Positions 751 through 13,013 of a stretch of DNA of 48,301 nucleotides are shown piece by piece. The notes under the pieces were generated by a model, which was given only the letters and a program-made list of their open reading frames with translations, ran no database searches and was not told where the DNA came from. Positions within the stretch are counted from its first letter, which is position 1. The number at the start of each line of letters is the position of its first letter. The position numbers and the translations under genes are program-made. This stretch comes from Peptoniphilaceae bacterium (GTDB lineage Bacteria > Bacillota > Clostridia > Tissierellales > Peptoniphilaceae): assembly GCA_028723425.1 (NCBI GenBank), contig JAQYEZ010000064.1, forward strand, positions 1 through 48,301, written 5' to 3'.

Positions 751-998
751 GGAGTATTTAAAAACTTAAACAGTGCCAAAAGATTAGCTTATAGATTAAG
801 TATAAGGTATTCGATGAAAACGGCGAGATAGTTTATCTAGTAGGAAAGACTATAGATCAATTAGCTAGAGAAGTTATAAATGGAAAATGGAGAAATAGAT
901 AAGATTGTAGAAGAAGATTAGACAAGCAGATATGATTATTAGGCACTTCAGAAAAGAGTAAATTAAATAATTTAATTAAAGTAGCAGATAAAAATTAA
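751..998 (+). pseudogene. decayed endolysin/amidase C-terminus with CW_7-like repeat
   Basis: Across several frames the sequence reads GVFKNLNSAKRLA (frame of 751), VFDENGEIVY then TIDQLAREVINGKW (frame of 807 to about 897), and YDY-stop-ALQKRVN (frame of 928). LAREVINGKW followed by YDYxALQKRVN is the pattern of the Cpl-7 (CW_7) cell-wall-binding repeat found at the end of phage lysins and some amidases. At least two frameshifts and several stops separate the pieces. No catalytic domain is present. It suggests that a prophage or a phage-derived element once occupied this end of the island. Confidence 0.6.
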
Positions 999-1015
999 TT
1001 TTTAGGATAATATAC

Positions 1016-1044
1016 TTGACTAATACTACGTTACACGATATACT
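1016..1044 (+). promoter_or_regulatory. promoter of the padR gene with operator-like core
   Basis: TTGACT (1016-1021), a 17-bp spacer and TATACT (1039-1044) form a near-consensus vegetative promoter. The spacer contains TACTACGT (1024-1031), a core that recurs in front of the precursor peptide gene and the ABC exporter gene. PadR autoregulation is therefore plausible. Confidence 0.65.
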
Positions 1045-1096
1045 AAAAATAGATAGTATTTAACTTTTATAAATTAAGATTTAATTGAGGTATTAA

Positions 1097-1429
1097 TTGA
1101 ACAAAAATATAAATTTAATGGATGAAATTCCACTTACAGAAACAGCTTATTTGGTTTTGTTGACTATGACAAAACCAAATCATGGATATGGTGTAATGCA
1201 AGATGTTGAGAAATTAACTAATGGGAGAGTTGTATTTGGTCCAGGAACTCTGTACGGTGCAATTAACAATTTAGAAAAAAAAGGATGGATAGAGTTAGAT
1301 TTTAATGATAAAAAAAATAGAAAAAAAATTTATAAAATAACAGAAGTTGGAAAGCAAATTTTAAACTTAGAGCTAGAAAGAATGGATAACTTAGTTAAGA
1401 TTAGTAGAAACTTGTTAGAAGGAGAATAA
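1097..1429 (+). CDS. PadR family transcriptional regulator
   Basis: The 110-residue protein has the PadR winged-helix layout: an N-terminal ETAYLVLLTM helix, the hallmark NHGYGVM and GTLYGAINNLEKKGWI segments of the recognition region, and a short C-terminal dimerisation helix (class PadR-s2 length). The start is a TTG at 1097 with GAGG at 1087-1090; the first ATG lies seven codons in and has no better site. The next gene begins one base after the stop and is a DUF2812 protein, a very common partner of PadR repressors. PadR proteins usually repress neighbouring transport or stress genes until a ligand binds. Here the likely targets are its own operon and the peptide locus downstream, judging from the shared TACTACGT element. 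Confidence 0.9.
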   Translation: MNKNINLMDEIPLTETAYLVLLTMTKPNHGYGVMQDVEKLTNGRVVFGPGTLYGAINNLEKKGWIELDFNDKKNRKKIYKITEVGKQILNLELERMDNLVKISRNLLEGE

Positions 1430-1430
1430 A

Positions 1431-2084
1431 ATGAAAACTTTTTTAAGAATTTTTTTTAATCCTATTGAAGATAGAGAAAGGTTTTTAAATAAAAAAGCAG
1501 AAGAAGGATATGAATTGGTGTCAAGTGGAAGTGTATTTCATAAGTTTAATAAAACAGATAAGAATAAAAAATATATGGTTCATTATATTGGATATATGAA
1601 TAATAAAGAAAGAATGGAATATGAAGATTTTATTAAAAATATGAATATGAGAATATTATATTCACCATTAAATTTAGGGAAAAAATCTTATGGAAACGTT
1701 AAATATAGACCCTACAATCCAATTAAAAGTAGTCTAGCAACAAACCCAGGTATGATAAATAGAGAAATTATGATTGTTGAAAATAGTAATGGTAAAAAAA
1801 TAGAAATGTATACAGATAGCAATAGTAAAATAAGAGATCTTAGTAGAAGGAAAAAACCGTATACATATTTATTTTTGGCTTCAGTAATAATTATTTTTAT
1901 AGGAGTATTAGAAAAATTAGACTTTAATATTAGATTATTTAACCAGACATTTTTAAGTTTTAGACCATTTGATAATATTATAAATGTATGGATTACACTA
2001 GGCATATTAATTCTCATATATTCAATTGCAAAGCTTATACAATTAAATAATATGATTAAATTCATAGATTCTAATATTATATAA
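1431..2084 (+). CDS. DUF2812 domain membrane protein
   Basis: This 217-residue protein has an N-terminal soluble part (about 1-140) with the DUF2812 pattern: a conserved opening on the FFNPIEDRERFLNKKAEEGY theme, followed by beta-strand-rich sequence. Two hydrophobic segments follow near residues 145-160 and 185-205. It sits directly behind padR with AAGGAG before the ATG, so the two are co-transcribed. PadR-DUF2812 pairs are widespread in Firmicutes. The DUF2812 member is thought to modulate or sense for the regulator, but its biochemical role is unknown. A terminator follows, separating this pair from the peptide operon. Confidence 0.8.
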   Translation: MKTFLRIFFNPIEDRERFLNKKAEEGYELVSSGSVFHKFNKTDKNKKYMVHYIGYMNNKERMEYEDFIKNMNMRILYSPLNLGKKSYGNVKYRPYNPIKSSLATNPGMINREIMIVENSNGKKIEMYTDSNSKIRDLSRRKKPYTYLFLASVIIIFIGVLEKLDFNIRLFNQTFLSFRPFDNIINVWITLGILILIYSIAKLIQLNNMIKFIDSNII

Positions 2085-2102
2085 TATTTTTCATAAAAAA
2101 AT

Positions 2103-2142
2103 AAATGCTAGAGATGCATTTTGACATTATCTGGCATTTTTT
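2103..2142 (+). terminator. terminator after the padR-DUF2812 operon
   Basis: AAATGCTAGA (2103-2112) pairs with TCTGGCATTT (2130-2139), 10 bp with one wobble, followed by a T run to 2142. The loop and distal arm contain TTGACATTAT, which is repeated in the promoter just downstream. Confidence 0.6.
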
Positions 2143-2151
2143 AGTTTTAAC

Positions 2152-2180
2152 TTGACATTATTTTTTTTTGGCATTATAAT
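2152..2180 (+). promoter_or_regulatory. strong promoter of the precursor-peptide operon
   Basis: TTGACA (2152-2157) and TATAAT (2175-2180) are both perfect consensus and are separated by exactly 17 bp, including a run of T. Transcription would start near 2187, within the adjacent palindrome. Such a strong promoter suggests that the operon is kept off by a repressor. Confidence 0.85.
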
Positions 2181-2186
2181 ACGAAT

Positions 2187-2200
2187 AACGTACTACGTAT
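2187..2200. promoter_or_regulatory. candidate PadR operator
   Basis: An 11-bp palindrome, ACGTACTACGT (2188-2198), sits at the expected transcription start of the precursor operon. Related sequence occurs at 1024-1031 (TACTACGT) and inverted at 2609-2621. Position and recurrence suggest the operator of the PadR protein; binding is inferred. Confidence 0.5.
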
Positions 2201-2254
2201 AGCGAAGTAATAATTGAAGTAATAATTGATGTATTTATTTTATAAGGAGGAAAT

Positions 2255-2461
2255 ATGTATATAGGTAATGGCTATGGTATTAAAGGTGCACAATCATCTG
2301 CTTGTGCAGCATTTGCTTGTCCTTTGGACGGGTGTGTATTAAATGCATGTGGAGGAAACGCTTGCGGTGGAAATGCATGTGGCTTACAACTTTGTCCATT
2401 AGATGCATGTCCAGTTGATGGATGCGTTGTGGATGTCTTTTCAACAAAAGATAGTAAATAA
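2255..2461 (+). CDS. Cys-repeat RiPP precursor peptide, nine Cys at strict 5-residue period
   Basis: This 68-residue peptide has cysteines at 17, 22, 27, 32, 37, 42, 47, 52 and 57, nine in a row with exactly four residues between each. Eight of the nine are followed at +3 by Asp, Asn or Gln (D25, N30, N35, N40, Q45, D50, D55, D60), so the unit is C-x-x-[DNQ]-[AGL]. A short leader-like segment (residues 1-16, Gly/Tyr rich) precedes the repeat, and a polar tail STKDSK ends it. It has AAGGAGG upstream of ATG 2255 and the best promoter in the window. A radical SAM/SPASM enzyme and ABC transporters follow in the same direction, the classical setting of a thioether-bridged RiPP (sactipeptide or ranthipeptide type). 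The peptide identity is inferred from context and regularity. I cannot assign it to a named precursor family without a search. Confidence 0.8.
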   Translation: MYIGNGYGIKGAQSSACAAFACPLDGCVLNACGGNACGGNACGLQLCPLDACPVDGCVVDVFSTKDSK

Positions 2462-2478
2462 AAAAGGTAGGTGCAAAA

Positions 2479-2595
2479 ATGAATAAAAGTAATTATTTAG
2501 GGAAAGCATATTACAATGCTGAACATCGCACAGCTGTATCCGCATGCTGGATAGATGCATGTTTACTATATGGTTGTGCAATAAAGTTTTGGTAA
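2479..2595 (+). CDS. second, short Cys-repeat precursor peptide
   Basis: A 38-residue frame with a ribosome site (AAGGTAGG, about 2465-2472) begins at ATG 2479, 17 bases after the first precursor stops. It encodes a basic, Tyr-rich 22-residue leader-like part and the core CWIDACLLYGCAIKFW. Its three cysteines, at 23, 28 and 33, have the same five-residue period as the neighbour, and both peptides enter the repeat through S-A-C. The CWIDAC unit matches the CPLDAC unit of peptide one. Acidic or polar residues at +3 are only partly kept (D26, Y31, K36). The shared spacing makes a coding role very likely. It would be the second substrate of the radical SAM enzyme, giving a two-peptide product or two independent products. 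Confidence 0.75.
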   Translation: MNKSNYLGKAYYNAEHRTAVSACWIDACLLYGCAIKFW

Positions 2596-2608
2596 TGATA
2601 TAGAAGAT

Positions 2609-2621
2609 ATGTAGTACGTAT
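2609..2621. promoter_or_regulatory. second copy of the candidate PadR operator
   Basis: ATGTAGTACGTAT is nearly the reverse complement of the element at 2187-2200 (shared ACGTACTAC core). It overlaps the first possible start codon of the ABC exporter gene. It may be a roadblock or secondary site; no clear promoter is seen in front of it. Confidence 0.35.
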
Positions 2622-3177
2622 GGGGGTAATGGTGAAATTATTTAATTATATAAAGCGATATTTATTTAAAGAAACAAAAAACATTATTTTTTACTTACTG
2701 TTAAGTTTTATAATTTGGTTATCAAATTTAATTATTCCATTATTAGTTGGTAGGTTTATAGATGGGATATTAGTAACTAAAAGTTATGGTTATATTTATA
2801 ATTTCACCATTATTACTCTAATGATGACTCTAATATCTGTTATATGTGGATATATTTTAAATTTGATAAAAACAAATATAACTTTAAAAATAAGTAAAAA
2901 TATTAAATTAAATGTATCAAATCATATATGGCACTCTAATGAGTCTAAGCTAAATAGTATTAATAGAGCATATTTAAGCCAAAGAGTAGTTAATGATAGT
3001 GATTCGATAGTAATATATACAATTAATAACATCTCAGAAATGATTATTAATTTATTAACTTTTATTTTTATTCAAATAGTTGTAATAAAAATGAATTTTA
3101 ATATTGGATTATTTCTAATACTGACTATTCCAATATATTCACTTATATATATTAAATTTAAAAAAGATATTTTTTAG
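2620..3177 (+). CDS. ABC exporter, membrane-domain fragment (frameshifted)
   Basis: These 185 residues form the first half of an ABC exporter transmembrane domain: hydrophobic helices near residues 15-45, 60-85 and 140-180, and the intracellular-loop region with HIWHSNESKL. No C39 peptidase domain precedes it. The frame ends at TAG 3175-3177 inside a run of six T. Adding one T restores a frame that runs through LESLDLKEYI into the ATP-binding fragment at 3288-4226. The intact protein would be about 535 residues, normal for a half-size exporter. It is therefore one gene broken by a single-base change, a homopolymer sequencing error, or slippage. The true start may be GTG 2632, which has GGGGG five bases upstream. 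Expected role: export of the modified peptides. Confidence 0.7.
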   Translation: MGVMVKLFNYIKRYLFKETKNIIFYLLLSFIIWLSNLIIPLLVGRFIDGILVTKSYGYIYNFTIITLMMTLISVICGYILNLIKTNITLKISKNIKLNVSNHIWHSNESKLNSINRAYLSQRVVNDSDSIVIYTINNISEMIINLLTFIFIQIVVIKMNFNIGLFLILTIPIYSLIYIKFKKDIF

Positions 3178-3287
3178 AGTCTTTAGATTTAAAAGAATAT
3201 ATAAGCAGATATTTTCAGATATTTAGTGAATTAATTAATAATACATATTTTATAAAGATAAACAACGTTTTCAAGCAAGCAAAAGAA

Positions 3288-4226
3288 ATGTTAGATATAG
3301 GTTTTGATAAACTTTTTAAATCAAATATAGAATATGCAAAAAAAATATATACTTTTTCATCAATAGGGTCAATTATCAATAGTTTCTCACAAATAATAAT
3401 TATATTCATTGGAGGTATAGCTATTGTAAATGGAAATCTAACAGTTGGAAAGTTTACAGTGATTAGTTCATATTTTAATATATTTATAGGAAGTATAAAG
3501 TATTTTCTTGAACTAAGTAAATCTTATCAAGATGTTATTGCTAGCATAGTTAGATTAGAAGAAATAGAAAATATACCTAAAATAAAGTCAGGTAATATAA
3601 CAATAAAGAGTATTGAAAGAATAGAATTTAAAAATGTTGATTTCTCATATGGAGATCAAAAAATTATCTCAAATTTAAGTTTAATAATTAAAAAACCAGG
3701 AGTATATAATGTTATTGGTGAAAATGGCTCAGGTAAAAGTACATTCTTAAATTTACTTGCAGGAATTATTGAACCAGATAAAGGGGATATTTTAATCAAT
3801 AGCATTAATATTAGTGAATTAGATAAAGCTTCTTTTTGGGAGAATAATATTGCTTTTCAACAACAAAATACAATAGTTTTGGGTAATAGCTTGGAAGAAT
3901 TCATTAAACTAGGGTTAGATAAAGATGAAATTTCTAGACTTCAGCAATATAAAGAGAATCTAAATTGTATAAAGAATTGTAAAACTGAAAGTAGAAATGA
4001 AAAATCTATATCAGGAGGAGAGAGACAAAAAATTAATTTGGCAAGGGTATTTTCAAAGAATAACTCAACATTAATTTTAGATGAGCCTACTACATTTTTG
4101 GATTTAAAAGCAAAAAAGTATTTAGAGAATGAAATAAATAAAATAGCGAAGAAAAAAATAGTAATAGTAGTTTCTCATAATGATACTATTTTATTTAATG
4201 AAAAAGAAAATGTTATTAGAATTTAG
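3288..4226 (+). CDS. ABC exporter, C-terminal half with ATP-binding domain
   Basis: This fragment holds the last transmembrane helices (about 22-75) and a complete nucleotide-binding domain: Walker A GENGSGKST (144-152), Q-loop region with FQQQN, signature ISGGERQ, Walker B STLILDEPTT and the H-loop VVSHND. The reading frame is open back to 3174, so the region 3174-3287 also belongs to it; ATG 3288 is only the first available Met and has no good ribosome site. Together with 2620-3177 it is one ATP-binding/permease exporter interrupted in the poly-T tract at 3170-3175. Whether a functional protein is made is uncertain. Confidence 0.75.
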   Translation: MLDIGFDKLFKSNIEYAKKIYTFSSIGSIINSFSQIIIIFIGGIAIVNGNLTVGKFTVISSYFNIFIGSIKYFLELSKSYQDVIASIVRLEEIENIPKIKSGNITIKSIERIEFKNVDFSYGDQKIISNLSLIIKKPGVYNVIGENGSGKSTFLNLLAGIIEPDKGDILINSINISELDKASFWENNIAFQQQNTIVLGNSLEEFIKLGLDKDEISRLQQYKENLNCIKNCKTESRNEKSISGGERQKINLARVFSKNNSTLILDEPTTFLDLKAKKYLENEINKIAKKKIVIVVSHNDTILFNEKENVIRI

Positions 4227-4261
4227 CTAATTAAATTTAATAGAATAGAGGGGAGTTGAAT

Positions 4262-4489
4262 ATGAAAGAATTTGTAGAATTAATTAAACCGATGTTACCA
4301 TTATATTTATTTATAGGGGCATTGTATTTAATTTTTTTGATTTATTGTATTAGAGATATCTTAAAAAGTAATACTATGAGTAGGAAAAGCAAGGTAATCT
4401 GGATTATATTTGTTATAGTAATACAAGTTATTGGTCCTATTATATACCTTGTTATAGGCAAAAAAGAAACTAATGAAAAGCTTACTTAA
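4262..4489 (+). CDS. PLDc_N family small membrane protein (YxlE-like)
   Basis: A small protein of about 75 residues with two transmembrane helices (near 13-33 and 45-65), a RDILKS...SRKSKVIW basic linker between them, and the P-I-I-Y-L-x-x-G-K ending typical of PLDc_N domains. I chose ATG 4262, with GAGGGGA nine bases upstream, over an in-frame TTG at 4256. Its last 17 bases overlap the ABC ATPase gene. The trio PLDc_N protein, ATPase and permease resembles yxlE-yxlF-yxlG of Bacillus subtilis, where the small protein accompanies a bacitracin-type ABC transporter. A supporting role for that transporter is likely. Confidence 0.75.
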   Translation: MKEFVELIKPMLPLYLFIGALYLIFLIYCIRDILKSNTMSRKSKVIWIIFVIVIQVIGPIIYLVIGKKETNEKLT

Positions 4490-5372
4490 ACTTCATAATA
4501 TCTGTAAAAAATATAATAATATAAATGTTATTAATAATTTAAGCTTTGAATTACCAAACAAATGTATTATAGGACTTATAGGTGAAAATGGATGTGGAAA
4601 AACAACTTTAATGAAGTGTATTTCTCAGTTAATATCTTTTGAAGGAAATTTAGAGTGGAATGCATCAAAGCCAGGCAAAACTTCATATATTACAGATGTG
4701 CCTTCGTTTCCACCTTATATGACAGGTGAAGAGTTTTTAAAATTTGCCTTAGATGTTATAAATGACAACGAAAATAAATATACCATAAACGAAATATTTG
4801 AAAAAGTTAATTTGGGAATATATGATAAAGATAAACTTATATCAAATTATTCTAGGGGAATGAAACAAAAATTAGCTATTGGAATGTCGTTATTAATCGG
4901 ATCTGATTTACTTTTATTGGATGAACCAACATCAGCATTAGATCCTCTGGCTAGACTAGACATATTACAAGTTATAAAAGCTCAGAGAGAATTTTGCTCT
5001 ATATTAATTAGTAGTCATGATATTAATTCTATTTCAGAAATTGTAGATTACGTAGCGTTTATGCAAAGAGGAGAGATAATTTATTTTAACAAGATAAATG
5101 ATTTCCTTAAATTATGCGAAAAAGGATTAGAAATAGATCTTATTAATGAAGTAAGCTTTGAAGATTTAGATTTTTTATTTAAATACCTTAAAAAAGATGA
5201 TATTATAGTGGATAATAAAAAAATCATCATCAATAGATTGTTGAGCAATAAAGATATCGTATATATATGTAGATGTATGGTAAAAAATGACATCTATTAT
5301 AAGAACTTTTGTAATAAAAAAAGTATTAATGCTTTCTTACAAAATATAAATGATGGAGAAAACTTTGAATAA
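4473..5372 (+). CDS. ABC transporter ATP-binding protein, immunity/bacitracin-resistance type
   Basis: A 299-residue ATPase with Walker A GENGCGKTT (37-45), signature YSRGMKQKLAIG, Walker B LLLLDEPTSALDP and an H-loop in ISSHDI. The roughly 80-residue C-terminal extension is typical of the BcrA/YxlF group. It overlaps the genes on either side by 17-23 bases, so translation is coupled with the PLDc_N protein and the permease. In peptide loci such separate ATPase-permease pairs usually protect the producer, while a fused exporter handles secretion; here that division is inferred. Confidence 0.9.
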   Translation: MKSLLKLHNICKKYNNINVINNLSFELPNKCIIGLIGENGCGKTTLMKCISQLISFEGNLEWNASKPGKTSYITDVPSFPPYMTGEEFLKFALDVINDNENKYTINEIFEKVNLGIYDKDKLISNYSRGMKQKLAIGMSLLIGSDLLLLDEPTSALDPLARLDILQVIKAQREFCSILISSHDINSISEIVDYVAFMQRGEIIYFNKINDFLKLCEKGLEIDLINEVSFEDLDFLFKYLKKDDIIVDNKKIIINRLLSNKDIVYICRCMVKNDIYYKNFCNKKSINAFLQNINDGENFE

Positions 5373-6135
5373 TTACGTGCTTTTAAGACATGAATATAAT
5401 ACTATTAAAAGAGAAAAAAAATCATTAATACTTATATTATTTTTTATATGTATAACAATTTTTTCTATTATGATAACGCATTATATTCCGGAAATAATGA
5501 AGATATTATTTATTGATCAAATAAAAGAGATGGAAAGCACCTTAAATAAATATATTGAAAATGTATCAGCAATACACTATATAAATCAATTTTCTAAATA
5601 TATATCTCAGTTAGGATTTATAATAACATCTATTATATTTTCTAATTTTATTAGTGATGACTTAAGAGAAAAGAGAATATATTTATTACTAGCGCTAGGA
5701 ATAAAAAGAAAAGATTATTTTGTAAGTAAGAGTCTGATAATTAATTTACTATCTTTGATATGCTTGGTATTATCACTAGTAGTCTTTAGAGCAGGACTAT
5801 TTATTTACCATGTAACTATTTCATTTAATTTATATTTTACAATGTGTAATGTTTTACTTTTAAAATATCTAATACTGATAAATATAATTCCATTTATATC
5901 AAGCTTTAGGTTGAATTCATGGGGGATTCTTTTCATTACATTATTGTTCTATGCTGCACTAAGTGCATTTAGATATATGCCATATTTAAAAATGTTAAAT
6001 CCATTTTATTATATCTATGTATTTTCAATAAATAGCAATTTCAAGAATTATATTTTAGCTATAGTTTCAACTATAGCTGTCGTGTGTGTTTTAAATTTTG
6101 AGGGAATAAAAAGAATTAAAAAGATAGATTTATAG
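5350..6135 (+). CDS. ABC-2 type permease partner of the preceding ATPase
   Basis: A 261-residue membrane protein with about six hydrophobic helices and an extracytoplasmic stretch after the first one (residues about 45-80), as in BcrB/YxlG-type permeases. It overlaps the ATPase gene. Two adjacent ATGs begin at 5350, but a TTG at 5365 has GGAG six bases upstream and could be the true start. It lies nine bases before the radical SAM gene, so transporter and enzyme are in one transcript. Substrate unknown; self-immunity or export of the locus product is likely. Confidence 0.85.
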   Translation: MMEKTLNNYVLLRHEYNTIKREKKSLILILFFICITIFSIMITHYIPEIMKILFIDQIKEMESTLNKYIENVSAIHYINQFSKYISQLGFIITSIIFSNFISDDLREKRIYLLLALGIKRKDYFVSKSLIINLLSLICLVLSLVVFRAGLFIYHVTISFNLYFTMCNVLLLKYLILINIIPFISSFRLNSWGILFITLLFYAALSAFRYMPYLKMLNPFYYIYVFSINSNFKNYILAIVSTIAVVCVLNFEGIKRIKKIDL

Positions 6136-6144
6136 GAGGAGTTT

Positions 6145-7458
6145 ATGAAAATATCAAGTTACAACTTATTTATACCTTGTGATGATGAAATTTTATTATT
6201 CAATACATTGAGTGGAGAAACATTTAAGATAGATGAATATACCAAAGAGGCACTAAAAAATAAAGAGTTAGAAAAAATTGATTCTATACAAAAGCAAGAA
6301 TTTTATGATAAAAATATTATAATTGATGATGAAGTAAATGAAAAAAATATTATAGATTATTATCATAATAAGACAAAATATGCTAATCCTAATTTAACAT
6401 ATACGCTATTATTAACTTGGGCATGCAATTTGAGATGTGTGTATTGCTATGAAGGCGCTGGAGAGGACAAAAGTTATTCTATGAATAAGTCAACAGCTTC
6501 AAATATAATAGATCATATAAAAAATGAATCTATTAATAGAGGTTCTAAGACTATAGGCATAATATTATTCGGTGGGGAACCATTAATTAATTTTGAGATA
6601 GGAAAGTATATACTAAAAGAACTAAAAAAACATTGTATCGATAATTCTATTGAATTATATACTGGTGTAGTAACTAATGGTACGCTTTTGACTCGAAAAA
6701 TAATTGAAGACTTAATATATTTTAATTGCCAATTTATCCAAATAACTCTTGATGGGACTAAAAAGATCCATGATGCACGAAGAATAGGAAAAAACGAAGA
6801 AGGTACATTTGACAGAATAATATCAAACTTAAAGTTATTAAACAAATATAATAATAAAATTAAAACCATAATAAGAATAAATGTAGATAAAAATAATGCT
6901 ACTTGCGTATGTGACCTATTGGAATATCTGAATGAACAAGGATTAAATGATTATCCGATTGATTTTGGCATAGTTAGAAGCAGCACAGAATCATGTTTGT
7001 CATATGATGATAATTGTTACATCGAAGATGAAACTGCAGATTTATTGAGTGAATTATGGTTAGAAGCATCTAATAATGGATTTGATACACGACAAAGACC
7101 TATCAGAAAATGGACTTACTGTGGATTAAATAATGACAATAGCTTAACTAACGAACCTAATGGGGATGTATATAAATGTTGGGAGCATACTGTTATAGAT
7201 AAACATAAAATTGGAGAAATTGGAGAAAATGGCATTATAGAAAACATACAACCTTCTTTCTATGATTGGATGACTAGAAACCCATTAAATATAAAAGAGT
7301 GCTCTGATTGTATTTATTTACCAGCATGTGGAGGTGGATGTGGATCTGTGAGTTATAGTAGTTCAAAGACTTATAAAACTGAAGGATGTTTAAAAATAAA
7401 AGGTGTAATTGAAGAACAAGTTAAAAATTGGTACAAAAGTACAACTAAAGAAATTTAA
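6145..7458 (+). CDS. radical SAM/SPASM peptide maturase
   Basis: This 437-residue enzyme has a substrate-binding-like N-terminus (residues 1-80, opening YNLFIP with LLFNTLSGE), the radical SAM cluster motif WACNLRCVYCYEG (C94, C98, C101), a GGEP motif, and a C-terminal SPASM region with C386, C389, C395, C399 and C415 plus earlier cysteines in TYCGLN and YKCWEH. These would hold one SAM-bound and up to two auxiliary iron-sulfur clusters, as in sactionine and ranthipeptide synthases. It has TAGGAGGAG before the ATG and closes the operon begun by the two Cys-repeat peptides, its presumed substrates. The expected reaction is thioether formation from Cys to a residue in each pentad. The bond type and acceptor cannot be read from sequence. 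Confidence 0.9.
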   Translation: MKISSYNLFIPCDDEILLFNTLSGETFKIDEYTKEALKNKELEKIDSIQKQEFYDKNIIIDDEVNEKNIIDYYHNKTKYANPNLTYTLLLTWACNLRCVYCYEGAGEDKSYSMNKSTASNIIDHIKNESINRGSKTIGIILFGGEPLINFEIGKYILKELKKHCIDNSIELYTGVVTNGTLLTRKIIEDLIYFNCQFIQITLDGTKKIHDARRIGKNEEGTFDRIISNLKLLNKYNNKIKTIIRINVDKNNATCVCDLLEYLNEQGLNDYPIDFGIVRSSTESCLSYDDNCYIEDETADLLSELWLEASNNGFDTRQRPIRKWTYCGLNNDNSLTNEPNGDVYKCWEHTVIDKHKIGEIGENGIIENIQPSFYDWMTRNPLNIKECSDCIYLPACGGGCGSVSYSSSKTYKTEGCLKIKGVIEEQVKNWYKSTTKEI

Positions 7459-7500
7459 AATTATCAATTTTATTGTACAATTAGATATAGTCCCTATATT

Positions 7501-7542
7501 TGTGTATAAAGTAAGAGGTCATTTGAGACCAAAACTTACACA
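7501..7542. repeat. imperfect inverted repeat in the island's right-end gap
   Basis: TGTGTATAAAGTAAGAGGTC (7501-7520) is an imperfect inverted match to the segment ending CTTACACA at 7542, with GGTC/GACC and GTAAG/CTTAC stems nested inside. There is no T run directly after it, so it is a poor terminator. It could be a scar of an inserted element. The rest of the 7459-7725 gap holds the bcp terminator and nothing else I can support. Confidence 0.3.
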
Positions 7543-7666
7543 ATGTTTTTAACGAATAAAACTAACTAGGAAGAAATAAATAACCAATTACACTTTACAA
7601 TTAATTAAGAAGAAATTCAAAATTTATATAACAATCGTTTTAATGTCTAAATATAAATAAACAGAT

Positions 7667-7703
7667 AAAAAAGGGATGAGCAGAATAGAATTAGCTATTC
7701 TGC
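7667..7703 (-). terminator. terminator of the minus-strand fetA-bcp operon
   Basis: GCAGAATAG (7680-7688) pairs with CTATTCTGC (7695-7703), nine perfect pairs around a 6-nt loop. On the minus strand a run of six T follows after seven bases (plus-strand A run 7667-7672). It lies 23 bases past the bcp stop. Confidence 0.65.
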
Positions 7704-7725
7704 AACATCACCTTGTAGGTTTGTT

Positions 7726-8169
7726 TTATAGATTTTCCTTAATATAATTTAAAACTTCTTGAGCATGGCCTTTGGCTTTTACATTTCTAAATTCTTTGAT
7801 AAGCTTTCCTTTTTTATCAAATATAAAAGTAGACCTTACTACTTTAAGGTTTTTTCTACCTTTAACTTCTTTTAGAACGCCTAGTTCTTTTAGCATTTCT
7901 TCATTGGGGTCAGCTAGTAGGTTAAAGTCTAGTTCGTACTTTTCTCTAAAATTTTGGTGGCTTTTGATTGAATCTCTGGATAGACCCAAGATTACAGTAT
8001 CATGTTTTTTAAATTCATCTTTTAACATATTAAATTCTATAGCTTCTGTTGTACAAGCTGAAGTATTATCTTTTGGATATACATATAAAACAACATTTTT
8101 TCCCTTATAATCATCAATTGATTTTTTATCATCAAGCGAATCAAGTTTCATCGGACATATTTTTTCCAT
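7726..8169 (-). CDS. bcp: thiol peroxidase, peroxiredoxin Q/Bcp family
   Basis: The 147-residue protein reduces hydrogen peroxide and organic peroxides, using thioredoxin-type donors. The active-site stretch YPKDNTSACTTEA carries the peroxidatic Cys; the usual T-P-G-C-T is T-S-A-C-T here. LGLSRD and the ADPNEE loop are typical Bcp sequence. An ATG four codons upstream (8181) is open, but GGAGG lies six bases before ATG 8169, so I use the latter. It is the last gene of an operon with ugpQ and the fetAB-type exporter, which fits a joint oxidative-stress role. The last 235 bases of this region, with the adjacent downstream sequence, recur at 255-489 as a broken copy. Confidence 0.92.
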   Translation of the reverse strand: MEKICPMKLDSLDDKKSIDDYKGKNVVLYVYPKDNTSACTTEAIEFNMLKDEFKKHDTVILGLSRDSIKSHQNFREKYELDFNLLADPNEEMLKELGVLKEVKGRKNLKVVRSTFIFDKKGKLIKEFRNVKAKGHAQEVLNYIKENL

Positions 8170-8183
8170 TTTTTCCTCCATTT

Positions 8184-8864
8184 TTATTTCATTTCTGGAT
8201 AGTTAGTGATTATGCCATCCACTCCATATAATTTATTTTTTACAAAGTTAAATTTATCATTAACAGTCCATAAATTTATTATAATACCCTTATTTTTTAA
8301 GCTCTTAATATCTGCATGTGAAAGATATTTATGATTTGGATGGTAAATTTTTATATTGTGAGTAGCTAATAATTCCTCATCTATTGTTTGGATTTTTGAA
8401 AATAGATAGGCGAGAGGTATATTAGGGTCTATTTTTTGAAAATTAACTAGTGATTGTAGGTTAAATGATGATATCATAAGTCTATCAAGCATAGATCTGT
8501 TTTTGAATTTTTGATAGACTGCCCTTTCTATTCCCTCATAAGAAAATTCACCCGTTTTTAGCTCGACATTAGTAATTAATTTAGAATTTTCCACAAGATC
8601 CAAGTAGTCATCAAGCTTTAAAAAAGTTTGACCATCTTTAAATTTTAGTTTTTGTAATTCTAAAAAAGTCAAATCTTTTAAAAAGGCATCTTTACCTGTA
8701 AGCCTTTTGATGTTTTCATCATGAAAAATTACTATTTCATGGTCTTTAGAAAATTGAACATCAAGTTCTATACCATAAATATCAAGATCTAGACAAGCTT
8801 TGAAAGATTCTTTTGTGTTTTCTAAGTATTTAGAGCTATAACCTCTATGTGCAAATATATTCAT
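8184..8864 (-). CDS. ugpQ: glycerophosphodiester phosphodiesterase
   Basis: This 226-residue cytoplasmic GDPD hydrolyses deacylated phospholipids to glycerol-3-phosphate and an alcohol. Its TIM-barrel motifs are all visible: AHRGYS with ENTKESF at the N-terminus, GIELDVQFSKD, VIFHDE with the catalytic His, and a late LWTVND plus GIITNYP end. No signal peptide is present and the length is normal for the UgpQ subgroup. It lies nine bases after the fetB-type gene and fifteen before bcp on the minus strand. Confidence 0.9.
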   Translation of the reverse strand: MNIFAHRGYSSKYLENTKESFKACLDLDIYGIELDVQFSKDHEIVIFHDENIKRLTGKDAFLKDLTFLELQKLKFKDGQTFLKLDDYLDLVENSKLITNVELKTGEFSYEGIERAVYQKFKNRSMLDRLMISSFNLQSLVNFQKIDPNIPLAYLFSKIQTIDEELLATHNIKIYHPNHKYLSHADIKSLKNKGIIINLWTVNDKFNFVKNKLYGVDGIITNYPEMK

Positions 8865-8873
8865 ATAATTCTC

Positions 8874-9656
8874 CTAAAATATAAGTTGATCGTCCTTGTT
8901 AAAGAAATTTTTATAAGACAGATACAAGAACAAAAATACACAGATACAAACACTTGCTAGTATAGCTATCATAATTGCTATTTGGTATTTTATAGCTATC
9001 ATAGGAGATGTACCAGAAAGTATTTGCCCTGTCATCATGCCAGGTAAAGAAATTATACCCATATTTTTCATAGAATTTAAGGTAGGAAGAAAGGCTGTAT
9101 CAAAGGATACTTCTAAGATGTTATTTATTGCATCTTTTGGACTTGCTCCAAGCATAAGAGAAGCCTCAACTTCTTCTCTACGATTTTTTAAATTTTCTAG
9201 TAAAGTTACAAGGGCAAGATTTACTCCTGTCATTGAATTTCCAATAATCATTCCACCAAGCGGTATAAGATATTGTGGTGAATAAAAAGGCTTAACTTGA
9301 ATAACTATTACAAGGAAGAAAAGTAGGCTAAGGCTTGTTCCAGTAAAAATTGAAAGTCCGATTACTTTTTTTATTCCCTTAGGTATTTTTGTCTTTACAT
9401 TTTTAATCACGTTAAAAATTGCAAAAAATTCCATAATCAAAAACATGGCTAAGGGGAAAATAAAGCTTTTAGTATCAATAATATAGACTAGAACTAGGCC
9501 TGCTATAAATAGTTGGATAGTCATCCTTATTATCGAAATTAGAATATCTTTTTTTCTGTTGATTCCGTTTAGTGAAGTAACTATTAAGACTACTGCTACC
9601 AAAATATAGGTTAAAGCAAGTTGTTGATTTGAAAGATTTATTATTCCTTTATTCAT
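8874..9656 (-). CDS. fetB: ABC transporter permease, FetB/YbbM (UPF0014) family
   Basis: The 260-residue membrane protein has about seven hydrophobic helices and the family's central cytoplasmic segment (EASLMLGASPKDA, then LPGMMTGQILSG). In E. coli the FetA-FetB pair exports iron and raises peroxide resistance, which matches the bcp gene in this operon. The start ATG at 9656 lies three bases after the stop of the ATPase gene. The iron substrate is inferred from the family. Confidence 0.85.
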   Translation of the reverse strand: MNKGIINLSNQQLALTYILVAVVLIVTSLNGINRKKDILISIIRMTIQLFIAGLVLVYIIDTKSFIFPLAMFLIMEFFAIFNVIKNVKTKIPKGIKKVIGLSIFTGTSLSLLFFLVIVIQVKPFYSPQYLIPLGGMIIGNSMTGVNLALVTLLENLKNRREEVEASLMLGASPKDAINNILEVSFDTAFLPTLNSMKNMGIISLPGMMTGQILSGTSPMIAIKYQIAIMIAILASVCICVFLFLYLSYKNFFNKDDQLIF

Positions 9657-10986: not shown

Positions 10987-11575
10987 ATTGACAATTATTT
11001 TTTATAGTTCAACAGGTACAAACTTACAAATGGTTAGATGGGCTGAATATGAAGCTAAAAAATTAGGGGCAGAGGTAAGACTTAGAAGAGTAAGAGAACT
11101 TGTTCCTATGGATATAATAGAAAATAATGAAAAAATGAAAAAAACTTATGACAAAATGGCAGAAATTCCTGAAGTTACAGCAGATGACCTTGAATGGGCA
11201 GATGCACTTTTATTCTCATCACCAACAAGATTTGGAGCTATGGCATCACAAATGAAGCAATTCATTGATACACTTGGTGGCTTCTGGGCTAAAGGAAAAA
11301 CTGCCAATAAGGTTGTATCTGCTATGTCATCATCTGAAAATCCAAATGGCGGCCAAGAAAATACTATCCTTAATATCTACACAGTTATGTACCATTGGGG
11401 AGCTATAGTAGTAGCACCAGGATATACTGATTCATCTATATTTGCCGCTGGTGGCAACCCATATGGAACTTCCGCTACCTTTGGTAAGGATGGAAAAATA
11501 GTTGAAAATGTTGAACCAGCAGTAAGATACCAAGTTAAAAGACTATTAGAAGTAAGCGATAAGCTTAATTATTAA
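10976..11575 (+). CDS. NAD(P)H:quinone oxidoreductase, WrbA/flavodoxin-like
   Basis: This 199-residue protein has the WrbA layout: a FMN phosphate-binding start IIFYSSTGTNLQMVRWAE, the SSPTRFGAMASQMKQF loop that contacts the isoalloxazine, and GGNPYGTSA near residue 163, characteristic of WrbA. The family reduces quinones by two electrons using NAD(P)H, avoiding semiquinone radicals. It is translationally coupled to the MarR regulator and followed at once by a terminator, so the two genes are a complete quinone- or electrophile-response unit. Confidence 0.85.
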   Translation: MKSKLTIIFYSSTGTNLQMVRWAEYEAKKLGAEVRLRRVRELVPMDIIENNEKMKKTYDKMAEIPEVTADDLEWADALLFSSPTRFGAMASQMKQFIDTLGGFWAKGKTANKVVSAMSSSENPNGGQENTILNIYTVMYHWGAIVVAPGYTDSSIFAAGGNPYGTSATFGKDGKIVENVEPAVRYQVKRLLEVSDKLNY

Positions 11576-11597
11576 GAGGGGCGAAAGCCTCTTTTTT
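11574..11597 (+). terminator. terminator after the marR-wrbA unit
   Basis: AAGAGG (11574-11579) pairs with CCTCTT (11588-11593) around GGCGAAAG, followed by a T run. It overlaps the last bases of the oxidoreductase gene. Confidence 0.7.
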
Positions 11598-11742
11598 ATT
11601 GCATAGATTTATTATAGAATAGTATAAAGAGATAAGAAACTTTATGAAAATTTTCCCCTTGGGTATAAAAAAATAAATAATATGCAAGTGCTTTATAATA
11701 ATTCTAAAATAGTATATAATTTTATTAATAGGAGGTAACGTT

Positions 11743-12456
11743 TTGCAAAAATTTAAAAGAGTTGTTTTAAAATTAAGTGGGGAGGCTCTTTCAGGAAATA
11801 AGGGCTTCGGCTTTGATGATGAAACTATAGATAATATATGCTTAAATATTAAATCTTTACATGAAATGGGAGCTGAGATTTCTATAGTTGTTGGTGGTGG
11901 AAATTTCTGGAGAGGAAGATCTGGTGCTCATGTGGAACGTGCTTCTTCTGATACAATTGGTATGCTTGGAACAGTAATGAATGGTCTTAGGGTTCAATCA
12001 ACTCTTGAGAAATTAGGACTTGAAACGAGATTAATGACTGCAATTAGTATGCAAGAAGTAGCAGAGCCTTATATAAGAAGAAGAGCTTGCAGGCATCTGG
12101 AAAAGGGAAGAATAGTTATTTTTTCAGCAGGGACAGGGCTTCCATATTTTTCAACAGATACTACAGCAAGTTTAAGAGCCTTAGAAATAAATGCAGACGT
12201 TATACTTCTAGGAAAAACAGGTACAGATGGTATATATGACAAGGATCCTAACAAATATGATGGAGCTGTGAAATTTGATAAGTTAACTTACAAAGAAATT
12301 TTACAAAAAGAACTAAAAATCATGGATGCTACAGCAACATCCTTGTGTATGGATAATTCTATGCCTATTATTGTATTTGGAATCGATGATCCTGAAAATT
12401 TGGTCAGAGTTTTCAAGGGTGAAGAGATAGGAACAATCGTAAAGGAGAGTTTTTAA
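11743..12456 (+). CDS. pyrH: UMP kinase
   Basis: The 237-residue amino-acid-kinase-fold enzyme phosphorylates UMP to UDP. Visible motifs are VLKLSGEAL, the GGGNFWRGR glycine loop, the [14 protein letters not shown] segment and the TSTD-like [12 protein letters not shown] stretch followed by [15 protein letters not shown]. Translation starts at TTG 11743, ten bases after AGGAGGT. The stop codon shares a base with the start of frr, the near-universal pyrH-frr pair. Confidence 0.97.
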
Positions 12457-13013
12457 TGTACGAGACAATTATTTCAGACGCAGAAAAAAACTTAAAGGTT
12501 TTAGTTGATTCTTTTGAGGAAAGAATAACAAAAATTAGAGCTGGTAGAGCATCAGAAGCTAGCCTTGATGGGATTACTTTCTCATATTATGGAACAGAAA
12601 CTCCAATCAACCAAGCTGCAACAATTACAATACCAGAAGCAAGACTTTTGGTTATCAAACCATGGGATAGATCAAATATCAAGCCTATAGAAAAGGCAAT
12701 TTTAAAATCAGACTTGGGCATAACTCCATCAAATGATGGTGAAGTTATTAGACTTCCTTTCCCAACTTTAACAGAGGAAAGAAGAAAAGATTTGACCAAG
12801 GAAGTTTCTAAATATGCAGAAGAGGCTAAGATTTCTGTTAGAAATAGCAGAAGAGAGTCTATGGATACTGTTAAAAAAGGCTTTAAAGAAGGCGAAATAA
12901 CAGAAGATGATAGATTCTCATTAGAAGAAGATTTAAACAAGCTAACAGATAAGTATACCAAGTTGATTGACGGTATAGCAGAAAAGAAAAACAAAGAATT
13001 GATGTCAGTATAA
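12456..13013 (+). CDS. frr: ribosome recycling factor
   Basis: A 185-residue RRF that splits post-termination ribosomes with EF-G. KIRAGRASEASLDGI, the PINQAATITIPEARLLVIKPWD core and the long helical C-terminus (VRNSRRESMD) are diagnostic. It is coupled to pyrH by a TAATG junction. Usually uppS, cdsA and dxr come next; here a pilus gene starts directly at the base after the stop. Confidence 0.97.
   Translation: MYETIISDAEKNLKVLVDSFEERITKIRAGRASEASLDGITFSYYGTETPINQAATITIPEARLLVIKPWDRSNIKPIEKAILKSDLGITPSNDGEVIRLPFPTLTEERRKDLTKEVSKYAEEAKISVRNSRRESMDTVKKGFKEGEITEDDRFSLEEDLNKLTDKYTKLIDGIAEKKNKELMSV

Follow-up and report, generated by a model that had tools for sequence, protein, structure and literature searches.

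The 48,301-nt contig of a Peptoniphilaceae bacterium that was analysed here as a whole (the window; GCA_028723425.1, JAQYEZ010000064.1) encodes a 68-residue peptide in which cysteine returns at every fifth position. The locus raises the question of whether this peptide is a RiPP precursor of a known kind and, if so, what its neighbouring radical SAM enzyme would make of it.

The ladder peptide belongs to the CefA family

The peptide lies in a single open frame of 68 codons closed by a stop, downstream of a consensus promoter:

2255..2461, + strand: cefA, 68-aa precursor with a Cys ladder
2152..2180, + strand: sigma-70 consensus promoter upstream of cefA, TTGACA-17 nt-TATAAT (pattern match, 12/12 consensus positions)

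Its leader (residues 1–16) includes the motif YIGNGY and is followed by nine C-x2-[mostly D/N]-x units, the first of which has Phe at the third residue after Cys (+3). The sequence-only reading had placed the nine cysteines without deviation at residues 17, 22, 27, 32, 37, 42, 47, 52 and 57, and this was confirmed, all eight gaps being five residues. There are 4.9e10 ways of placing nine cysteines at random among 68 residues, and 28 of them form such a ladder (p = 5.7e-10). Two CGGNA units differ in four of their five codons, so those two are no recent DNA copy, and the ladder seems to be held at the protein level. The gene itself looks real: AGGAGG ends four bases 5' of the ATG, and the promoter is the sole perfect sigma-70 match among 54 candidate sites in 900–7750.

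In a profile search, the peptide passed the NCBIfam model NF038108, "Cys-every-fifth RiPP peptide CefA", with 62.3 bits (cut-off 30), and its eight gaps of five satisfy the feature that gives this family its name. A Pfam scan at E up to 1 returned no family, including no match to the pentapeptide-repeat PF00805, and the predicted structure, made from a shallow alignment, was disordered (pLDDT 38). Two suggestions of the sequence-only reading part ways. A RiPP precursor paired with a radical SAM/SPASM enzyme is upheld, since the CefA and CefB models both score over their cut-offs; the idea that the ladder matches no named type has to be given up, because NCBIfam names the pair. Judged by these profiles, the pair in the window is a real RiPP precursor and maturase, already named CefA/CefB. 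No paper on CefA/CefB was found in the open-access literature searched, outside which most subscription journals lie. The additions made here are the companion precursors, the leader motif, the tendency at +3 and a ladder in a second system (genome G697).

Organization of the cef operon

The genes run in the order padR, DUF2812, two precursors, ABC exporter, PLDc_N, ABC ATPase, membrane partner and cefB:

1097..1429, + strand: PadR-family regulator (PF03551, 56.5 bits)
1431..2084, + strand: DUF2812 protein adjoining padR (PF11193, 43.5 bits)
2479..2595, + strand: short precursor P0002, 38 aa, with leader YLGKAY and core SACWIDACLLYGCAIKFW, three Cys at gaps of five
2620..3177, + strand: ABC exporter gene, first part, transmembrane region (PF00664, 33.5 bits)
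3288..4226, + strand: ABC exporter, second part in another frame, end of membrane region and ATPase (PF00005, 90.3 bits)
4256..4489, + strand: 77-aa protein with a PLDc_N segment (PF13396, 42.5 bits)
4473..5372, + strand: ABC ATPase, PmtC/lantibiotic-protection-like (NF047568, 128.5 bits, and TIGR03740, 122.4 bits, both under cut-off)
5350..6135, + strand: ABC-2-like membrane protein adjoining the ATPase (weak matches, ABC2_membrane_2 E 0.09)
6145..7458, + strand: cefB, 437-aa radical SAM/SPASM peptide maturase

The second ladder peptide, P0002 (translation MNKSNYLGKAYYNAEHRTAVSACWIDACLLYGCAIKFW), had been overlooked in the sequence-only reading. It starts 17 bases past the cefA stop and has a leader resembling that of cefA; 25 nt of its DNA are 76% like the end of cefA. 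Its score against NF038108 (15.1 bits, E 0.016) lies under the cut-off of 30. The motifs CWIDAC and CWIDLC are present in two short precursors of another genome of the order, G468.

DUF2812 proteins are often paired with PadR, and the PadR protein possibly controls the operon. The octamer TACTACGT at 1024–1031 and 2191–2198, 5' of padR and of cefA, was weighed as a PadR site and judged weak: 0.31 occurrences are expected in the window, and two are reached in 3 out of 100 shuffles. Between 3177 and 3288 the reading frame of the exporter is interrupted, as seen when the three frames were translated separately, and the two parts of the exporter align to positions 145–314 and 361–670 of NF045998, each under the cut-off; no peptidase-domain match was obtained for this exporter. 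The break could reflect true decay of the gene or a fault in the assembly, and with such a gene the product of the window copy may lack export. From sequence, the ATPase at 4473–5372 has a possible part in self-protection or export, with the 5350–6135 product as its probable membrane partner. Downstream of CefB, whether intact or a remnant, an exporter gene also lies in L092 and L071 (by scan) and in L002 and L070 (by eye); none was seen adjoining CefB in L038, the locus of G468.

The cef region is flanked by a 235-bp direct repeat (255–489 and 7719–7953, 94% identical). An intact PrxQ-like peroxiredoxin gene (7726–8181, minus strand) has its 3' end in the right copy, and the left copy is a fragment of that gene; at E 1e-30, such a peroxiredoxin was found in none of 30 other genomes of the genus. 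The repeat is a possible mark of integration. In a stretch without long frames, a short frame (795–899) gave a sub-threshold match to CW_7, a lysozyme wall-binding repeat (19.7 vs 25 bits), and is perhaps a phage remnant. A serine-recombinase remnant guessed near 523–636 had no Pfam match whatever and was dropped.

CefB is a radical SAM/SPASM enzyme with its closest solved structure in a study of thioether formation

The radical SAM/SPASM gene noted in the sequence-only reading does lie on the same strand, 3.7 kb downstream of cefA. Its product passes NF038107 by a narrow margin (613.6 bits, cut-off 600). In Pfam, PF04055 scores 65.3 bits, over its cut-off, and SPASM PF13186 19.6, just under 21.5. 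Cys 94, 98 and 101 (CX3CX2C) are invariant in three aligned CefB proteins, as are Cys 326, 345, 386, 389, 395, 399 and 415, which we take to be the SPASM pattern. The closest solved structure is 5wgg/5why, both by sequence (E 1.7e-25) and by a low-confidence model; that model is poor (mean pLDDT 58), the alignment of three sequences being too shallow for the SPASM part, and the TigE structure 8vpo ranks fourth among its fold matches.

Against models of other maturases, the window CefB stayed under every cut-off: PapB 140.3 bits (cut-off 340), the SCIFF maturase TIGR03974 108.7 (425), RumMC 72.9, GggB 71.9 and StsB 57.2. Its closest other families are TIGR04463 (223.2 bits, cut-off 525) and TIGR04334, Clo7bot (196.6, cut-off 600). 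For neither of these two was a paper found in the open-access literature searched.

Four intact CefB loci share a leader motif

Four intact CefB loci were compared: the window, L002, L038 and L092. L002 comes from a metagenome-assembled genome labelled Alkaliphilus, and its CefB is 44% identical to that of the window (595.3 bits). L038 (G468, same order) encodes a CefB that is 53.5% identical to the window's and passes the cut-off (657.8 bits). The precursors beside it number four, one long and three short, the short ones having three, three and two Cys. L092 (G776, same class) has a CefB of 574.0 bits and two precursors of 124 and 122 aa, which reach 25.3 bits against NF038108, under the cut-off of 30. 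As the L002 and G776 enzymes and the G776 precursors score under the cut-offs, the Cef label there rests also on the leader and the core motif.

The leader motif Y[IL][GD][NK]x[YF] is common to all nine precursors of these loci. A somewhat relaxed form of the leader pattern, with C-x2-polar after it, was sought in 96 records (840,280 bases, several overlapping and most chosen for their nearness to radical SAM genes) and occurred only at the four CefB loci; two further pattern matches, in a stray frame of L038 and in L083, had no C-x2-polar unit. The sequence-only reading had tied the peptide to a radical SAM partner, and no homologue without one turned up here: precursors and CefB occur together in all four intact loci, and the ladder of G697 adjoins a TIGR04463 gene.

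Two further genomes carry damaged CefB genes. G402 (same genus) retains only the C-terminal part, adjoining another radical SAM gene, and in G437 the gene has an internal deletion; no leader-bearing precursor was found in the 19 kb around either. At the G402 locus, a 72-aa Asn-Ala-repeat peptide (L070 4971–5189, NANANVIANAN) precedes two radical SAM genes and the truncated CefB. One of the two enzymes is PapB-like (293.4 bits, cut-off 340); the peptide itself has no NCBIfam match at E 1e-5 and no Pfam match at E 1.

A polar residue at +3 is more constant than the five-residue period

The exact period of five holds in the window and, save one off-ladder Cys each, in L002 and in the long G468 peptide. 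In the G776 precursors the gaps alternate between 7 and 5 (C-x6/C-x4), and the G697 ladder mixes gaps of 5 and 10, so the strict C-x4 period stressed in the sequence-only reading is not the family rule. The number of Cys per precursor ranges from 2 to 18 across the four loci and from 2 to 7 within one.

A polar residue (DNEKQHR) three positions after Cys recurs more steadily than the period. Of the 79 core Cys in the nine precursors, 66 have such a residue at +3 and 43 at position −2; among the nine first Cys the numbers are 7 and 2, and among the nine last Cys 9 and 7. On these counts the downstream partner is the steadier one. When residues were shuffled within units, the number of units with polar +3 averaged 16.1 and reached at most 31 in 20,000 rounds, against 64 of 75 observed; since the nine precursors are related, these counts are not independent. 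The 75-unit set leaves out four segments of under four residues, both counts leave out the Cys at residue 2 of the G776 precursor L092_a, and G697 was tallied apart. The last unit of L092_a is CGKN, so that the peptide stops exactly at the +3 Asn. Together with the polar +3 pattern, this end makes it more likely that each Cys bonds forward, to the +3 residue downstream of it, than that the bond runs back from the following Cys.

The pattern has exceptions. In L002, only 8 of 17 units have a polar +3 residue and seven others carry Ala there; Lys occupies +3 in 12 of the 75 units. At x4, Ala or Gly is found in 28 of 42 ladder units and in 16 of 17 C-x4 units of G776.

Ladders outside the CefB loci and distribution of the system

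A ladder over the CefA cut-off (52.6 bits) also occurs in G697, a genome of the same class:

L097 9438..11060, minus strand: G697 ladder protein, flanked by genes at 11089..12543 and 7484..9448, all minus

The last part of this 541-aa frame holds 27 Cys, each gap being either 5 or 10 residues, and ends CPADACAADACAID. The ladder forms a tail behind beta/gamma-crystallin and FRG1/fascin-like domains, an unusual arrangement in which a folded carrier takes the place of a short leader. One neighbour is a radical SAM/SPASM gene of family TIGR04463 (561.7 bits against a cut-off of 525, and 216.3 with the CefB model), and the other a TIGR03975 B12 radical SAM C-methyltransferase gene (607.6 bits, cut-off 281.85). 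At +3, 13 of the 27 units have a polar residue and nearly all others Ala, with Asp after the last Cys; the YIGN-type leader pattern had no match in the G697 record L053. Standing beside a TIGR04463 enzyme, the G697 ladder shows that such ladders are not a property of CefB alone, and if matured at all it is matured by an enzyme family other than CefB.

Apart from G468, order-level matches to the CefA model were rejected as stray frames. The weaker G540 matches fall in stray frames of genes that encode repeats; of the long frames there, one codes for pentapeptide repeats (96.3 bits) and the other was recognized by eye. In G476 a match over the cut-off runs opposite a longer repeat frame. NF038108 can thus fire on stray frames of pentapeptide-repeat genes and of other genes with five-residue repeats (L039 9161–9448, L040 8969–9178 and L041 8794–9195), and a period-five ladder alone is therefore not diagnostic. 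Weaker class matches (G655, G677, G695, G720, G872) were inspected by the longest frames at the place. Among 14 control genomes, the CefA model matched in two, in one of them over the cut-off.

CefB scored over its cut-off in 2 of 249 genomes of the order, 1 of 398 in a phylum sample and 1 of 391 in a class sample (G776 just under), counts that include the window's own genome each time. CefA did so in 3 of 249 order genomes, one of them the G476 stray frame, in 3 of 291 of a class sample, including that frame and G697, and in none of 60 other relatives. Within the family of G776, CefB was found in 1 of 32 genomes, G776 itself; it was found in none of 22 genomes in the order of G823 (E 1e-100) and had no match on plasmids (E 1e-40). 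The search of viral contigs gave one enzyme with 27% identity. The Cef system is rare and scattered, a distribution that suggests horizontal transfer.

A proposal for side-by-side thioether rings

We propose, with a probability of roughly 0.55, that CefB makes side-by-side thioether rings, each from Cys(i) to residue i+3, on a multi-precursor RiPP. The leader motif YIGNGY, or YLGKAY in the short peptide, would bring the precursor to CefB, and the SAM cluster of the enzyme would take a hydrogen from the residue three after each core Cys, mostly Asp or Asn. The Cys sulphur would then be joined to that +3 carbon as a thioether, with about 2 Da lost per ring. CefA could in this way acquire up to nine non-overlapping four-residue rings and the short peptide up to three. 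Once trimmed, the product would leave through an ABC transporter and work extracellularly, as a bacteriocin or signal, its biological role being the least certain part of the scheme.

The nine-ring proposal draws on the CX3CX2C and SPASM cysteines, on the likeness to 5wgg/5why, which come from a study of thioether formation, and on the precedents of streptosactin and PapB. In the portions available of the respective sources, the rings of streptosactin are unnested and link Cys25-Ser28 and Cys31-Gly34 (PMC8172795; Cys15 is printed at one place), PapB bonds Cys to Asp at the beta carbon, tolerates n = 0–6 in Cys-Xn-Asp and forms in-line rings (PMC9413430), and a review gives Asn, Thr and Asp as ranthipeptide acceptors (PMC8326336). 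Lys is absent from the acceptors named in those portions of the ranthipeptide and thioether sources cited. Lys and Ala at +3 fit a thioether to +3 less well.

A competing explanation, which we regard as unlikely on balance, is that CefB is a sactisynthase joining Cys to an alpha carbon, either of the +3 residue or of the small residue before the next Cys, with polar +3 residues kept for solubility or recognition. The frequent Ala at +3 in L002 and G697 is acceptable to alpha-carbon chemistry; it weakens the Asp/Asn reading and strengthens this one, and the weak +3 rule in these two systems fits such chemistry at least as well. The abundance of Ala or Gly at x4 points the same way, and streptosactin, in the available part of PMC8172795, is a case of unnested alpha-carbon rings. 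Against it, the CGKN end of L092_a excludes, in that peptide, any acceptor beyond the +3 Asn, and the PapB model outscores the RumMC, GggB and StsB models on the window CefB.

TigE forms carbon-carbon bonds and its structure is among the leading fold matches of CefB, so CefB might perform some other radical chemistry of this sort, leaving the cysteines free, metal-binding or in disulphides; we consider this distinctly improbable. The poly-cyclopropylglycine peptide is presumably linked to TigE. In the part available, PMC9062424 has that peptide as its subject. Other chemistry of this kind sits poorly with Cys heading every unit in nine of nine precursors, including those with alternating gaps, while the intervening residues vary. 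We give hardly any credence to the idea that the ladder is a pentapeptide-repeat-like structural protein or an accident of frame, with the radical SAM gene as a bystander. The period-five Cys ladders of G540 and G476 do arise as stray frames of repeat genes; for the window peptide, the lack of any Pfam match at E up to 1, the disordered model (from a shallow alignment) and the recurrence of the leader motif and CefB adjacency in four of four intact loci speak against it.

If side-by-side thioether rings are indeed what CefB makes, the enzyme would be a natural tool for long chains of such rings on the long and short precursors of one operon, and the Cef loci hold a rule for ring positions under which ring number and spacing vary and leader and motif stay. 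A bolder and more doubtful extension is that CefB, a single enzyme working with short leaders, is a modular maker of ring chains, forming Cys(i)-(i+3) thioethers with Asp, Asn or indeed Lys as acceptor, with no fixed distance between rings and on precursors of very different length, that the long and short peptides act together, and that the G697 tail is a portable module.

Comparison with known systems

Other loci with CefB-like or TIGR04463-type enzymes also encode Cys-rich peptides. In G111 and G325, C-x2-D/N also occurs in precursors that adjoin CefB-like enzymes, for example CGVDICLVDVG; the leader pattern was absent from the records of both that were searched. In G325, a long precursor (L048 8233–8874) has 17 Cys and many C-A-A-D-type units and drew no NCBIfam hit up to E 10, and the maturase beside it scores 522.9 bits against TIGR04463, just under 525. 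G111 has tandem precursors (L045 8720–9609) with a common GCPWLCY and a C-terminal C-x2-D-x-C-x-V-D-[IV]-G; for the one scanned, NCBIfam gave no hit up to E 10. G438 and G467 (L072, L073, L074, L075) have arrays of short Cys peptides beside CefB-like enzymes, many starting MKYI[VI]KP and carrying a YCY or YCF motif.

Among named systems, SCIFF/thermocellin supplies the closest solved enzyme to CefB by sequence and by model (5wgg); it differs in the low score of the window CefB against TIGR03974 (108.7 vs 425) and in its six Cys, for which the available part of the source reports one link. Clo7bot (TIGR04334) and TIGR04463 are the closest other maturase families by score, with the window CefB far under their cut-offs. 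Streptosactin GggA/GggB shares unnested Cys(i) to i+3 rings, as far as the available text of PMC8172795 goes, whereas it has two rings with alpha-carbon links to Ser and Gly, and the GggB model gives the window CefB 71.9 bits where its cut-off asks for 650. PapA/PapB freyrasin has several in-line Cys-to-acid units and a radical SAM enzyme, and PapB takes Cys-X2-Asp in vitro according to the part of PMC9413430 available; its native units, however, are six Cys-X3-Asp, and the window CefB reaches 140.3 of the 340 bits set for PapB. The G697 system resembles the window in a ladder over the CefA cut-off and an adjoining radical SAM/SPASM gene, and differs in its crystallin/FRG1-fascin carrier, TIGR04463 enzyme and TIGR03975 C-methyltransferase. 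With CefA/CefB (NF038108/NF038107) the agreement is direct, both window proteins scoring over the cut-offs and Cys standing at every fifth residue; to this family the window and its relatives add a short companion precursor, a leader motif that all share and spacings other than five.
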